Shown here one piece after another: positions 11,010 through 25,648 of a DNA stretch of 26,468 bases. Both the position numbers and the translations under genes were made by a program. The notes under the pieces are model-generated. The model did no database searches. It was not told the DNA's origin and was given only the letters and a program-made list of their open reading frames with translations. Position 1 is the stretch's first letter. Every line of letters starts with the position of its first letter. Source of the DNA: a virus; the IMG/VR virus record IMGVR_UViG_3300044948_000497, positions 1-26,468 of that record. One strand, given 5' to 3'.

Positions 11010-12578
11010 ATGGCATCAAATACACATGACCCTTTTGTTTCACAAATTCAACACTTGTTAAGCTCGCATGCGCCTGACGGCATAGCTACACGAGTAAAAA
11101 GCAACAAGGACCTAGCACTCGCTGTAACAGCATGGACCGCAAGCGCATCATGTTCCAACTGGAGTGAAAAAATCTATTGTTATGTGAATGGTTTGGAACA
11201 CCCACCTCTGTGTGCATGTGGTCAAGCTTTAACATTTGTCAGCATAAAAACAGGCTATCGCGAGTTCTGTTCACGATCATGTGATCATGCTAAATCAGCA
11301 GCAACTCAACGCAGAATCGCCAAAATGAAAAGTCAAGGCGGGGTAGGACTAGCCAATCCCAATACCAAAGCCAAAGCTAGAAAAACATTACAACAAATAT
11401 ATGGTGATGATATCATCAATCCCAGCCAAATATTAGAAAATCGAGCAAAGTTAAAAATCAACAATCCAATGCACTGCCAAGTTACCAAAGATAAAATTAA
11501 GCAAACTACATTACTGAAATATGGCGTTGATAACGTTGCCAAGCTACATTATTCACCTAAAACTATTGAAATCTTAAATGATAAAGAATTGTTAAAAGAA
11601 CTATTTCTAAGTATGCCTACTTCTGATATTTCATCTAAACTAGGTGTAAGTGATGGTGTTATATTTAAACAACTATATAGATTTGAACTTAGAAAGCCTC
11701 ATCAGTCATCTCCAGAGTTACAACTAAGAGAATACCTAACATCATTGGGCTGTGATGATTTTAAAAAAGATAGGAAAATACTAAAAGGCAAGGAACTGGA
11801 TTTCTATAGTGCTTCATTAAATGTTGCAATAGAATATTGCGGATTATATTATCATTCAGAATCTGTCTACCTAAATAGGAAATACCATAGGGAAAAGTAT
11901 TTACAATGTAAAGAAGCTGGTATAAAATTAGTTACTATATTTGAAAATGAATGGATACACCGACCAAATATAGTTCTGTCGCGCATTAAACATCTCGTTA
12001 AAAGATCTGAAACTGGTATCGGTGCTAGGAAGTTAGCAATAAAAGAAATTGATACAAACATCGCTAAGCAGTTTCTAGAGGTGTTTCACATTGACGGATA
12101 TGCAAATACATCAACAAAATTTGGTGCTTTTTATCGTGATGAACTAGTCGCTGTTATGACATTTGGTAAAAATAATCGAGTTAATTCTGCAAAGCTTTTA
12201 CAAGAGTGGGAAATGGTTAGATTCGCAACTAACGGTAAAAACTATCCAGGTGTTGCTGGTAAACTATTTTCAACATTTATCAAAAGTTATAATCCCACTA
12301 GTATTCTAAGTTACAGTAATCTACGATACGGAGAAGGCGATTATTTAAAATATCTAGGTTTTATTCGAAATAAAGATACCAGCGTGGGATATTGGTACTT
12401 TAAAAATAATGAATATAAATTATATCATCGTTCGAACTTTACCAAGGACAATATCTTAAGGAAGTTTCCTATGATTGATTTTACTGCTGTTACAGACGAA
12501 TATTCCATGGCCAAGCTTGCAGGATTAGATCGGATATGGGATTGTGGCAATGCAGTATGGGCATGGAACAAAAAATAA
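11010..12578 (+). CDS. Free-standing homing endonuclease, Vsr/EDxHD-like
   Basis: A 522-residue mobile nuclease on the strand opposite to its neighbours. A zinc-ribbon pair lies at C68/C70 and C87/C91 (CACG, CSRSC). It is followed by NUMOD-like DNA-binding repeats (QIYGDDIINPSQ, LLKYGVDNVAKL) and a helix-turn-helix at about 203-226 (TSDISSKLGVSDGVIFKQLY). The nuclease core starts at SSPELQLREYL with GKELDFYSASLNVAIEYCGLYYHSE (D264, E275, H282) and TIFENEW at 309-315, as in Vsr-related EDxHD homing enzymes. The C-terminal 180 residues (FHIDGYANTS, FGAFYRDELVAVMTFGK, YHRSNFTKDN) are the extra domain often seen in phage versions. After about 330 bases the DNA becomes visibly more AT-rich than neighbouring phage genes, suggesting transfer. 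No intron was seen; it sits just past gp23. Confidence 0.8.
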   Translation: MASNTHDPFVSQIQHLLSSHAPDGIATRVKSNKDLALAVTAWTASASCSNWSEKIYCYVNGLEHPPLCACGQALTFVSIKTGYREFCSRSCDHAKSAATQRRIAKMKSQGGVGLANPNTKAKARKTLQQIYGDDIINPSQILENRAKLKINNPMHCQVTKDKIKQTTLLKYGVDNVAKLHYSPKTIEILNDKELLKELFLSMPTSDISSKLGVSDGVIFKQLYRFELRKPHQSSPELQLREYLTSLGCDDFKKDRKILKGKELDFYSASLNVAIEYCGLYYHSESVYLNRKYHREKYLQCKEAGIKLVTIFENEWIHRPNIVLSRIKHLVKRSETGIGARKLAIKEIDTNIAKQFLEVFHIDGYANTSTKFGAFYRDELVAVMTFGKNNRVNSAKLLQEWEMVRFATNGKNYPGVAGKLFSTFIKSYNPTSILSYSNLRYGEGDYLKYLGFIRNKDTSVGYWYFKNNEYKLYHRSNFTKDNILRKFPMIDFTAVTDEYSMAKLAGLDRIWDCGNAVWAWNKK

Positions 12579-18038: not shown

Positions 18039-18254
18039 TTAGATACCCATGCCTCCACCTTCTTCTTGAGGAGATCCATACATCAGTTGCAGTAAATCTT
18101 GTTTCATTAGTGTTTCTAAATCTCTAGCTGCTCGCATTTTTTTCAAACGATTCAAATGTGCCAAAGTAATTTTTGGTTTTCTGCTGTCGTTTATTTCTCT
18201 TTGACTGTATTCGTCTTGACTTATATCTGTGTAGCCAATCTCTTGTGCTTGCAT
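18039..18254 (-). CDS. Small basic protein downstream of portal (71 residues)
   Basis: A 71-residue protein with a central conserved-looking helix RKPKITLAHLNRLKKMRAAR, then LETLMKQDLLQLMYGSP and a Gly-rich end GGGMGI. Similar small proteins (K-ITL--LN-L-K-R, then KQDLL--MYG) follow portal genes in marine T4-like phages, in the gp67/gp68 region. GGAG lies six bases before the ATG. The start is two bases after the portal stop and the end abuts the fibre-like gene, so it is firmly within the operon. It may be a prohead core component; the role is not established from sequence. Confidence 0.6.
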   Translation of the reverse strand: MQAQEIGYTDISQDEYSQREINDSRKPKITLAHLNRLKKMRAARDLETLMKQDLLQLMYGSPQEEGGGMGI

Positions 18255-23682: not shown

Positions 23683-23690
23683 GTTGTTGG
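23667..23690 (+). other. Hairpin over the stop codon of the small tail gene
   Basis: CCAACAA (23667-23673) pairs with TTGTTGG (23684-23690), with an inner CTT/AAG pairing. It spans the TAA at 23680-23682. It is the first of a run of hairpins that continues to about 24190 and may protect the 3' end of the late mRNA. Confidence 0.45.
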
Positions 23691-23719
23691 TGATTCATTT
23701 AGTATTTCTTGATGATTTA

Positions 23720-23766
23720 GTTATTCAGGATTTAAGTGGTTGTGATAAACACAACCACTGAATAAC
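23720..23766 (+). promoter_or_regulatory. Hairpin that competes with the following terminator
   Basis: AGTGGTTGTG (23735-23744) and CACAACCACT (23750-23759) form a perfect 10-bp stem with a 5-base loop. Outside it, GTTATTCAG (23720-23728) can pair with CTGAATAAC (23758-23766). That outer pairing uses GAATAAC, the 5' arm of the terminator stem at 23760-23791, so the two structures exclude each other. Confidence 0.5.
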
Positions 23767-23797
23767 AACTAGCTAAAGCAAGTTGTTATTCTTTTTT
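23760..23797 (+). terminator. Intrinsic terminator after the gp26-like operon
   Basis: GAATAACAAC (23760-23769) and GTTGTTATTC (23782-23791) form a perfect 10-bp stem followed by six Ts. The stem is AT-rich, so it is weaker than the other terminators here. The 5' arm has an alternative partner upstream. Confidence 0.65.
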
Positions 23798-23803
23798 ATA
23801 AGT

Positions 23804-23814
23804 TATGATATAAC
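23804..23814 (+). promoter_or_regulatory. Possible -10 region of the structured RNA
   Basis: TATGAT (23804-23809) and the overlapping TATAAC (23809-23814) each match TATAAT 5/6, about 15-20 bases before the first hairpin of the structured stretch. No good -35 box is at the right distance, so this is tentative. Confidence 0.25.
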
Positions 23815-23827
23815 ATATGCTTTTTTA

Positions 23828-24100
23828 GCACTCATGTAGATTGTGATGCCATGATTTTCCCGACCCGGAAAAATCATGGGTCGCGGAGCATCATGTGAGT
23901 TGCTCAGCCATGCTGAATGCATCCTAGCTCTGTCCAAGAGCAGCGGGCGGCGTGCCTATTTCCCTGCTTGTAGATGCGGATTTTGATTGTTACCAATCCA
24001 CGCGGTTATGGTTGTCCAAGCTGTTGTTGTTGATATTCAGCCACCAACAACAGCATCACAGATGAAGTGTCCCTCAGAGCTGTGATCCTTTTTACTTTAC
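23828..24100 (+). ncRNA. Candidate structured noncoding RNA, unknown class
   Basis: This gene-free stretch is packed with nearly contiguous stems on the plus strand. H1 is GCACTCA/TGAGTTGC (23828-23834/23896-23903) enclosing TGATGC/GCATCA and CATGATTTTCC/GGAAAAATCATG. H2 is TCAGC/GCTGA with a 3-base loop (23904-23916). H3 is GCATC/GATGC (23919-23923/23973-23977) enclosing GCTCT/AGAGC. H4 is GATTG/CAATC (23985-23998). H5 is GCTGTTGTTG/CAACAACAGC (24020-24054). H6 is ATCACAG/CTGTGAT (24055-24086), followed by CCTTTTTACTTTACTTTT, which would act as a terminator. H1/H2 and H5/H6 abut with no spacer. The U-rich end exists only on the plus strand. No tRNA, tmRNA or RNase P signature was found, and open frames are under 20 codons. 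Function unknown. Confidence 0.5.
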
Positions 24101-24242
24101 TTTTCCTGGCCAAGGTGTATCTAAGCTATTATCCTTGGAGTGCAGTATGATATTTCTATCCTTGGGCACTAACGAACTTACTTCGTCACTTATATTGCCA
24201 GTATGCAGACTTAAATGTTAACGGCAGGTGCCTGTTGTGTGC
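24101..24242. other. Gene-free remainder with further small inverted repeats
   Basis: CCAAGG/CCTTGG (24110-24115/24133-24138) and ACGAA/TTCGT (24172-24176/24182-24186) form small stems, and TATCCTTGG occurs twice (24130-24138, 24157-24165 region). No coding signal. It may be the 3' untranslated part of the minus-strand gene ending at 24243 or an extension of the structured RNA. Confidence 0.35.
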
Positions 24243-25076
24243 CTATCTTAGACCTGGTGTAATTTTTCTAGATTGTGCCCAGGGTTTTTTAGTTTCGTCA
24301 CGATATTTAATAAGGTATCTATCTCTAGTGGTTCTCAAAGAGATTTGCAAGTTTTCTGAGTTAGTAAAGTCTGGATCAACTTGGCTGACAACCAAAATAT
24401 CCCAACGAGTGTCTTGAATATTTTGTTCATTTAGCAGCAAAGGCTCACGGCAATAGGGAATGGTAATTTCACTACGGTTTTTCATGGCATTATATGCAAT
24501 GCTAACCAACTGCCGGGGAATTTGCACATGGCGTTTTGTGGACCATTCATGTTGCGGAAGAGTTTGAACAGGTGTGCGGAGTTCCTCAGTCTTTTGTGCA
24601 GCATGCAGGATTTCTGCTTGATGACAAACTTGATTTAGTATTTCCTCTGCCATGTTACGACGCACATCTGGATGTAAATGACACGTTGTAGCAAGAATAT
24701 TCATGACACTTTCTGTTCCACTGCTCATTTGCCATTGATTTTTATTATTGTAAGCAGTGGACCAGCAGTGCTCAATTTGCTGAGGCCAAGTTTTGCGAGG
24801 CTGAGTTTTGAGTTTGTCGCTACTGACAGAAAACTGTGCAGCAAACAACCATAGTTGGCGAACGTTTGTGCTAACTTGCACAAAGTCTTCGGGAAACGCA
24901 CGCATGCGTATTCCCAACATGTGACTCAAAGCTTGATAATAAGCCAGTTCATTTTTAATGAAATGACCTAAAGTTCTGGACTGACTTTCGGTTGCAGTCA
25001 ACTCAAAAGTCTTTTGCCAAGTGTTGTTGCGATTATATGCTGAATGACTCATGTTTATTGCGATTCCTGTAGTCAT
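24243..25076 (-). CDS. Unknown protein, probably early expressed
   Basis: A protein of about 277 residues that I cannot assign. The N-terminal part (NTWQKTFELTATESQSRTLGHF, then KNELAYYQALSHMLGIRMRAF) is helical. The C-terminal part contains RQLVSIAYNAMKNRSEITIPYC and WDILVVSQVDPDFTNS and ends in a basic tail (KPWAQSRKITPGLR). No signal peptide, membrane segment or catalytic motif is evident. Three starts are possible: TTG 25106, ATG 25076 and ATG 25052 (MSHSAYNR). A strong host-type promoter covers 25075-25103; if it is used, translation must begin at 25052, where AGGA is 12 bases upstream. It lies between the structured RNA and recombination genes, in a different regulatory class from the virion genes. 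Confidence 0.6.
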   Translation of the reverse strand: MTTGIAINMSHSAYNRNNTWQKTFELTATESQSRTLGHFIKNELAYYQALSHMLGIRMRAFPEDFVQVSTNVRQLWLFAAQFSVSSDKLKTQPRKTWPQQIEHCWSTAYNNKNQWQMSSGTESVMNILATTCHLHPDVRRNMAEEILNQVCHQAEILHAAQKTEELRTPVQTLPQHEWSTKRHVQIPRQLVSIAYNAMKNRSEITIPYCREPLLLNEQNIQDTRWDILVVSQVDPDFTNSENLQISLRTTRDRYLIKYRDETKKPWAQSRKITPGLR

Positions 25077-25103
25077 TATTGTATGTTCTTGTAAGTTTGT
25101 CAA
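25075..25103 (-). promoter_or_regulatory. Near-consensus sigma70 promoter
   Basis: Minus-strand TTGACA (25103-25098), exactly 17 bases, AATAAT (25080-25075): 6/6 and 5/6 to the bacterial consensus. It overlaps the two upstream candidate starts of the 24243-25076 gene and favours the start at 25052. It is back-to-back with the plus-strand motif at 25108. Confidence 0.55.
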
Positions 25104-25107
25104 CAAG

Positions 25108-25135: not shown

Positions 25136-25648
25136 ATGCCCAGTGCAGGCAAAAACAAAGGTAATACAGGCGAGCGTATAATCGCTAACTTTTTAACTGA
25201 ACTTTATCAGGCCAAGTTTATTCGTGTTCCGAACAGTGGAGCATTTTTAGGAGGTGCGAACAATCATCGCCAACAACTAATGGATCAAGGACAAATAGCT
25301 AGTTTTCGTGCTGACATCATTCCACCCAGTGACATGAGAGGTTTGGTTATTGAAAGCAAGTTTTACAAAGAGTTTCCTTTTAGCAAACTGTTGAAAAATG
25401 AAAAAATACCTCTATTAGACGGCTGGATCAAACAACTGGAAGAAAACATTACCAGCCAAGATTTCAGTGTGGTGGTATTCCGTATTAACAGACAAGGTAG
25501 TTTCGCTGTGTTCCATGAAAAGTGGCACGCACAACTGCAAATAGGCAATTATGCTAGGTATCAACATTATATTGTCACGGATTTCAATGACTTGTTCACT
25601 GTTAATCGCGATGTAATACGCAACATAGTGAAAACTCAACCTTCATAA
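25136..25648 (+). CDS. PD-(D/E)XK nuclease, Holliday junction resolvase-like
   Basis: A 170-residue small nuclease. GNTGERIIANFL (E13), RVPNSGAFLGG (30-40), FRADIIPP (D60) and LVIESKFY (E73-x-K75) form the E...D...ExK pattern of the archaeal-type Holliday junction resolvase/PD-(D/E)XK group. This suits resolution of branched DNA before packaging, a task done by the unrelated gp49 in T4. AGGTGA lies before the ATG. It converges on gp46, with a 13-base overlap of coding ends, and this recombination neighbourhood supports the call. It could instead be a restriction-like nuclease of another function. Confidence 0.6.
   Translation: MPSAGKNKGNTGERIIANFLTELYQAKFIRVPNSGAFLGGANNHRQQLMDQGQIASFRADIIPPSDMRGLVIESKFYKEFPFSKLLKNEKIPLLDGWIKQLEENITSQDFSVVVFRINRQGSFAVFHEKWHAQLQIGNYARYQHYIVTDFNDLFTVNRDVIRNIVKTQPS

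Follow-up and report, generated by a model that had tools for sequence, protein, structure and literature searches.

The closest described counterparts of the RNA considered here are GOLLD and ROOL, both encoded by phages and prophages. GOLLD is large, elaborate and pseudoknotted, its function is unknown, and many of its members are over 800 nt long and are located close to tRNA islands (accessible part of PMC12286853). ROOL contains multiple pseudoknots and forms RNA-only cages, one example being 659 nt long (accessible part of PMC12286853). OLE, an RNA of Gram-positive bacteria, is also large and intricately folded, and acts in ribonucleoprotein complexes (accessible part of PMC9723947). Unspecified non-coding RNAs of phage phiKZ are mentioned in the accessible part of a review.

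The window analyzed here, a stretch of viral DNA of 26,468 nt, contains an intergenic gap that, judging from its sequence, appears to encode a structured RNA with a core at 23826-24211 (about 390 nt, ends uncertain). Its relatives comprise type A, to which the window belongs, and type B, present in several copies per genome in isolated jumbo phages. Like GOLLD and ROOL, this RNA is large, phage-encoded and pseudoknotted, and we read the family as comparable in kind to these two but unrelated to them. Unlike GOLLD, ROOL and OLE, it has no Rfam match: with Rfam 15 no family reaches the gathering level in the window, in 12 type-A loci or in 13 other loci, and the GOLLD and ROOL covariance models in particular are not matched at gathering in the window and these 25 loci. 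Relaxed thresholds yield only sub-threshold matches to unrelated families; RNase P, 6S, hammerhead, group I and II introns, tRNA and tmRNA have no Rfam match. In contrast to the GOLLD setting, ARAGORN finds no tRNA or tmRNA gene in the 26,468-nt window. The initial annotation, which had proposed a structured phage RNA outside the recognized classes, agrees with these results. A blastn search of phages with the gap and two diverged members returned at best matches of about 30 bases, megablast of window positions 1-25000 returned no match, and searches of the open-access literature gave no description of this RNA. We consider the RNA family new, while large structured phage RNAs as a broad kind are already known.

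The intergenic gap and the parts of the RNA

The gap occupies positions 23683-24242. Its length of 560 nt, pointed out before as unusually large, is confirmed: the next largest gaps between the 21 ORFs taken as genes are 177 and 153 nt. The stretch 1-892, where no gene was named, was left out of this comparison, and an ORF at 18039-18254, if counted as a gene, would fill the 177-nt gap. The gap lies after a plus-strand gene of a baseplate hub protein similar to gp26 of phage T4 (22601-23464; PHROG 150, E 5.8e-18); an ORF of 71 aa separates this gene from the gap. Beyond the gap, the minus strand carries a gene (24243-25106) for which no PHROG match was obtained, and a gene of a RusA-like resolvase (25136-25648) comes next. 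Elsewhere in the window, a plus-strand homing endonuclease gene (11010-12578; PHROG 3339, E 8.8e-99) neighbours the major head protein gene. No stop-free frame in the RNA core exceeds 48 codons.

The features of the gap are listed below from the 5' side of the RNA, minus being its probable strand.

24228-24245, minus strand: AGGCAC twice, immediately 5' of the RNA; the motifs overlap the stop codon of the gene at 24243-25106
23826-24211, minus strand: RNA core, 5' end near 24211 and 3' side near 23826, conserved and covarying in 19 aligned sequences
24106-24201, minus strand: 5' domain, closed by CUGGC (24201-24197) with GCCAG (24110-24106)
24172-24186, 24140-24169 and 24110-24138, minus strand: three hairpins inside the 5' domain
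24055-24086, minus strand: hairpin AUCACAG / CUGUGAU (helix 8), two-sided change in 5/5 pairs, 98.9% paired
24020-24054, minus strand: hairpin GCUGUUGUUG / CAACAACAGC (helix 11), two-sided change in 8/8 pairs, 88.0% paired
23999-24003, minus strand: pseudoknot arm 1, GCGUG, immediately 3' of ACC
23920-23976, minus strand: helix CAUC / GGAUG, closing the pseudoknot sub-domain
23943-23967, minus strand: hairpin GCAGG / CCCGC (helix 17), with pseudoknot arm 2 in its loop
23950-23954, minus strand: pseudoknot arm 2, CACGC, immediately 5' of CGC
23941-23927, minus strand: variable hairpin GCUCU / AGAGC, inside the 23920-23976 helix (helices 16 and 19 for this helix and hairpin together)
23888-23900, minus strand: repeat 1 flanking the 3' hairpin, ACUCACAUGAUGC, identified by eye
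23850-23878, minus strand: 3' hairpin CAUGAUUUUUCC / GGAAAAUCAUG (helix 21), one-sided change in 4/5 pairs and two-sided in one
23828-23841, minus strand: repeat 2 flanking the 3' hairpin, AUCUACAUGAGUGC, identified by eye
23735-23758 and 23760-23791, no strand assigned: pair of inverted repeats 3' of the RNA with one base between them, the second followed by TTTTTT

In the type-A whole-molecule alignment, two-sided change is observed in 13 of the 26 pairs of the 5' domain (helices 2-6) and in four of the five pairs of the pseudoknot (helix 14), which is 100% paired. The hairpin at 23943-23967 shows it in two of five pairs and is 97.9% paired in the type-A core alignment; helices 16 and 19 show it in 2/5 and 2/2 pairs, respectively.

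The initial annotation had placed here an RNA of 273 nt ending at 24100. The region is indeed structured, but conservation extends to about 24211. The stems described are present, and of two pairs said to abut, the one formed by the hairpins at 24020-24054 and 24055-24086 does so, while the repeats upstream of the region are one base apart. The second of these repeats looks like the intrinsic terminator proposed at that place, and on the plus strand, together with TTTTTT, it looks like the terminator of the hub-gene operon; similar hairpin pairs are seen by eye at this position in many relatives. The stem and U-rich run near 24086-24107 had been regarded as the end of the RNA; since the functional strand is most likely minus, this is instead a conserved AAAAAGGAUCACAG segment within the RNA and not a terminator.

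A similar short motif flanks the 3' hairpin on both sides in the aligned sequences of both types (by eye). From group to group the copies on the two sides mostly vary in concert, being AUCAGAA, ACCAGAA or ACAUGA in type A and CGUCA, UGUCA or CUUCA in type B (also by eye), as if a single partner reads both of them; the second copy deviates in L046 and L050.

Of 20 type-A flanks, 18 (all but those of L054 and L058) contain the motif AGGC(A/T)C, in one to three copies that directly precede the RNA on its strand. In several contigs it is followed by AAATCTCCCC or a similar sequence, and TAGGCAC is also present within the pseudoknot loop of the window RNA itself. In 14 loci, non-coding matches to AGGC(A/T)C are found mostly at the RNA, with few elsewhere; as a candidate general promoter the motif was rejected, as in these 14 loci none is found within 120 nt upstream of ORFs of at least 90 aa.

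Type-A and type-B relatives

Besides the window, a whole or partial type-A RNA is present in 37 IMG/VR contigs (counted by hand, some of them near-identical). A profile search with the hub protein gathered 34 loci, and a fuzzy motif search detected the RNA in 19 of them. Reading of the sequences added L050 and L058, as well as L038 and L043, cut by contig ends, and L065, with an unrecognizable middle. Nine loci with a gp26 relative have an intact hub gene and show no RNA (L055-057, L061-064, L066, L067), and L069 stops within the hub gene. The RNA is more conserved than the adjacent hub gene, being 97% identical over 379 nt in one phage whose hub protein is 81% identical.

A looser DNA pattern, in which the outermost pair of the pseudoknot was fixed and the other four were left free, matched 54 stretches. 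Of these, 11 were already in the set, and the pseudoknot test was scored on the 43 newly obtained matches: all five pairs form in 24 and at most four in 19, and 13 of the 24 fully paired ones lie on previously unseen contigs, including contigs of 518,643 and 216,498 bp. A strict type-A pattern has no match in 84,980 genomes of bacterial and archaeal species. Covariance model R1, run over seven whole type-A contigs, gave a single strong match in six of them and none in a 111-kb contig, whose copy is cut at the contig end. A second match in a 452-kb contig (E 0.001) was judged by eye to be due to chance.

The covariation of the stems among relatives, proposed earlier as a check, is strong. With the register fixed, the pseudoknot has 5/5 Watson-Crick pairs in all 16 type-A sequences, formed by nine combinations of arms, while arms swapped between different pairs give 5/5 pairing in just 7 of 72 cases. 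In the type-A core (20 sequences, 19 distinct), 96.0% of cells are paired, two-sided change is observed in 12 of 20 pairs, and covariation is 0.504, compared with 0.193 ± 0.017 in shuffles and at most 0.156 with slid partners. For the whole molecule (19 sequences, window included) the value is 0.402, compared with 0.198 ± 0.009 and at most 0.127, respectively, with two-sided change in 48 of 84 pairs; the share of paired cells, 91.0%, is inflated, because the structure was derived from the same alignment and badly paired columns were removed. The two-sided changes and the fixed-register pseudoknot are much less affected by this. Further pair types show a modest excess in the whole molecule, 108 compared with 101.7 in shuffles, a value reached by 26 of 500 shuffles.

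Some sequences were excluded from particular analyses. L044, with an RNA like that of the window, was left out of the pseudoknot set, the comparison of strand energies and the mismatch census, and L040 and L042 were also left out of the latter; L054 was left out of alignments A4 and A5 and of a part of the GU/AC strand analysis. Later alignments do not contain L065 and the contig-end copies (L005, L010 and duplicates).

Isolated jumbo phages, 121Q, CBB, GAP32 and Munch among them, carry type B at the corresponding locus. Relatives of the hub protein occur in 61 records of the phage collection; the 40 listed are all 30-33% identical to it, and 39 of them come from records longer than 280 kb. 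The gene order kept, with variations, in the records read is portal, structural protein, hub, small ORF, large unannotated gap, and resolvase or endonuclease VII. The type-B gaps are about 650-910 nt long in the records read, and are empty or contain small hypothetical ORFs. Such ORFs are annotated within the RNA in Hallingskeid, Kaldavass and some other records; they look spurious, because the base pairs are conserved. The initial annotation was correct about a phage RNA but incomplete in scope, as this is a family of jumbo phages with several copies in some genomes.

With blastn, the 121Q gap matches 161 places in 40 records. Search of the whole records of ten phages yielded four copies in 121Q, three in RaK2 and five in each of XaC1, Munch, Hallingskeid, pEa_SNUABM_44, CBB, GAP32, XbC2 and Kaldavass, all on one strand within each genome; covariance model R2 confirmed the counts for 121Q, GAP32 and RaK2. 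The copies in GAP32 are 63-84 kb apart, and the copy at the hub locus is present in all six phages read there (121Q, XaC1, Munch, Hallingskeid, CBB and GAP32). Several copies per genome and a large pseudoknotted fold would also suit a ribozyme or what is left of a mobile or self-splicing RNA element. This is most improbable: the nearly coinciding positions of the five copies in CBB, GAP32, pEa_SNUABM_44 and XbC2 suggest vertical descent, none of the loci read was seen to contain an interrupted gene, and no Rfam family is matched at the gathering level.

Type-B covariation, measured on 27 of the 47 loci, is 0.502, compared with 0.180 ± 0.007 in shuffles and at most 0.112 with slid partners. In the corresponding alignment A6, 93.8% of cells are paired over 91 pairs, 61 of which show two-sided change, the structure again being taken from its own alignment. 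The counterpart of the pseudoknot is paired in 19/19 core sequences (alignment A8, 19 of the 47 loci), with two-sided change in all five pairs, three of them through one sequence only. In L186, L188, L191, L204 and L211, a hairpin with a GGAG loop is situated downstream of the RNA, directly before an ATG, which suggests translational control of the following gene.

The models do not cross between the types: R1, built for type A, found nothing at E 1 in 121Q, CBB and RaK2, and the best match of R2, built for type B, in 15 type-A sources has E 1.5. The kinship of the types therefore rests on the locus, the pseudoknot rule and the layout, the latter comprising in both types a repeat-flanked hairpin 3' of the pseudoknotted core. 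The rule, derived from type A, requires ACC, five bases starting with G, a spacer of 10-60 nt, the reverse complement of these five bases and (C)CGC. The resulting pattern, ACC-GNNNN..NNNNC-(C)CGC, is present in 17/17 type-A sequences (by construction, window included) and in 45 of 47 type-B sequences (all but L189 and L201), compared with none on the opposite strand and with 11 of 3400 and 10 of 9400 shuffles for types A and B, respectively. Over both strands of the whole GAP32 genome it has six matches, five of which are the five copies. Types A and B very likely share common descent, to judge by these common features.

PA5oct and Phosso retain the locus with a large gap, in which R1, R2 and the pseudoknot rule identify no member; the sub-threshold matches are those of R1 in Phosso (E 0.085 and 0.73) and R2 in PA5oct (E 0.975). 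Hairpins are seen in the unannotated gaps of both phages (L071, 5224-6237, in Phosso; L070, 4526-5188, in PA5oct).

The probable strand of the RNA

The RNA is probably encoded by the minus strand, which is favoured because of the type-B promoter motif, the pseudoknot rule and the GNRA loops; the plus strand named by the initial annotation is thus probably wrong. From type A alone, the assignment of the strand is less certain.

In particular, TGnTATAAT is present on the 5' side of the RNA, in the window-minus orientation, in 40 of 47 type-B loci, compared with 0 of 47 for the other flank and 86 of 4700 shuffles. TATAAT is present in 43 type-B loci; in 29 of these it is accompanied by a -35 box out of seven variants chosen by eye beforehand, with a spacing of 17 bases in 27 loci and 18 in two. 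The -35 box is TGAAAC in eight of the ten copies of CBB and GAP32. No recognizable promoter was seen in type A. A promoter class with -35 TGAAACG is described, in the accessible part of PMC5259590, with 18 examples, 11 of which precede genes in the range CBB_258-329, where many products function in DNA synthesis; the class is also present in GAP32.

The covarying type-B pairs point in the same direction as the promoter motif: in minus letters, GU outnumbers AC 38 to 15 (and 40 to 17 when the opposite strand's structure is used). In type A this preference for minus is 22 to 11 on alignment A3, and the strands are tied, 14 to 14, on alignment A5. Parts of the type-B strand analyses were done without L201 and/or L202. 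The 3' hairpin is GNRA-capped in 8 of the 19 aligned type-A sequences, and all eight four-base loops among these 19 hairpins are GNRA on the minus strand (GCAA in seven, GUAA in one); the hairpin of the window itself has a longer loop.

Folding is less decisive, and here the alternative of a plus-strand RNA, such as the 3' part of the hub-gene transcript, has to be considered. On the plus strand, the stretch 23820-24100 folds better than 200/200 shuffles (z -3.26), as the initial annotation had led one to expect, and the evidence from pairing is nearly strand-blind. Moreover, minimum free energy fails to separate the strands, that of plus being lower in 7/16 type-A and 22/46 type-B cases, and the mismatch census over all hairpins gives a weak strand signal. 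For the window core (23820-24215), minus has z -4.17 (none of 100 shuffles as good) and plus has z -2.28 (two of 100). The consensus folding energy favours minus in both types (in type A, -122.1 compared with -115.4 for plus), while its covariation term went either way. Given the one-sided promoter motif, the GU excess in type B, the pseudoknot rule and the GNRA loops, all on minus, a plus-strand RNA seems quite improbable.

Structured transcripts are known to prime DNA synthesis, as in the case of ColE1 RNA II and the R-loop origins of T4. Dispersed type-B copies preceded by a promoter-like motif, on one strand per genome, could likewise mark a replication origin. We consider this very improbable: in GAP32, the one genome tested, there is no GC-skew switch at the copies, and such extensive compensatory change speaks for a folded product.

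Expected mode of action

Most neighbours in the probable direction of the RNA are convergent with it. For 28 of 30 type-A loci (all but L053 and L054) the nearest ORF of at least 60 aa is a convergent one, and a convergent neighbour is found at the hub locus in five of the six type-B phages (121Q, Munch, Hallingskeid, CBB and GAP32), XaC1 having a co-directional gene after the RNA. In several loci, a terminator-like, bidirectional hairpin is situated between the RNA and the convergent gene. This arrangement argues mostly for a product acting in trans. An ORF of 62 aa in L053 and L054 and one of 117 aa in L060 lie on the RNA strand near the 3' side of the RNA.

The same neighbourhoods bear on the possibility of a cis-acting leader, that is, a structured 5' part of an mRNA controlling transcription or translation of the genes after it, for example by put-like antitermination. 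The put RNAs of phage HK022 are structured elements present more than once per genome, behind promoters, and are cis-acting and short. The RNA described here differs from them in being much longer and in that most hub-locus copies face a convergent gene. GAP32 copies 1, 2, 4 and 5 are, on the likely strand, co-directional with the flanking genes and have a gene start within a few hundred bases, the XaC1 hub locus is similar, and one group of copies has the GGAG-loop hairpin just ahead of ATG. At such GAP32 loci the transcript may also be a leader, or may be processed out. As an explanation of the family a leader is nevertheless unlikely, considering the convergent genes and hairpins at the hub locus, the type-A loci with one convincing copy per contig, and the five GAP32 copies, for which no common downstream gene was noticed on reading the loci.

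The preferred reading, and a rather likely one, is that the gap is a gene of a minus-strand, pseudoknotted noncoding RNA that would act in trans. Transcription on the minus strand would begin near 24211 or slightly upstream and proceed toward about 23735. In the folded transcript, hairpins would make up the 5' domain, the pseudoknot (ACC-GNNNN ... NNNNC-CGC) would form the central core, and the 3' hairpin would stand between the two copies of the short repeat. We infer that it accumulates during infection as a free, stable, compactly folded RNA, and that conserved unpaired segments around the rigid pseudoknot may be presented to a protein or RNA partner in trans; alternatively, the RNA may self-assemble like GOLLD and ROOL. 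In the CBB group expression would be expected in mid-infection, because the -35 TGAAAC of CBB and GAP32 matches the published promoter class.

More broadly, we give about even credence to an undescribed RNA class, ancestral to a wide group of jumbo myophages and multi-copy in some of them, that would serve in mid-infection as a machine or scaffold acting in trans and having a fold of its own.

The recorded hosts of phages with copies include Escherichia, Salmonella, Klebsiella, Cronobacter, Erwinia and others, and for the E. coli phage Sharanji the recorded host is K-12 MG1655, which makes expression studies, structure probing and partner capture feasible in a common laboratory strain. Large structured RNAs whose function is unknown are few, and this family stands out by its deep conservation, by covariation that is unusually clear and, in these phages, by several copies of its gene in one genome.
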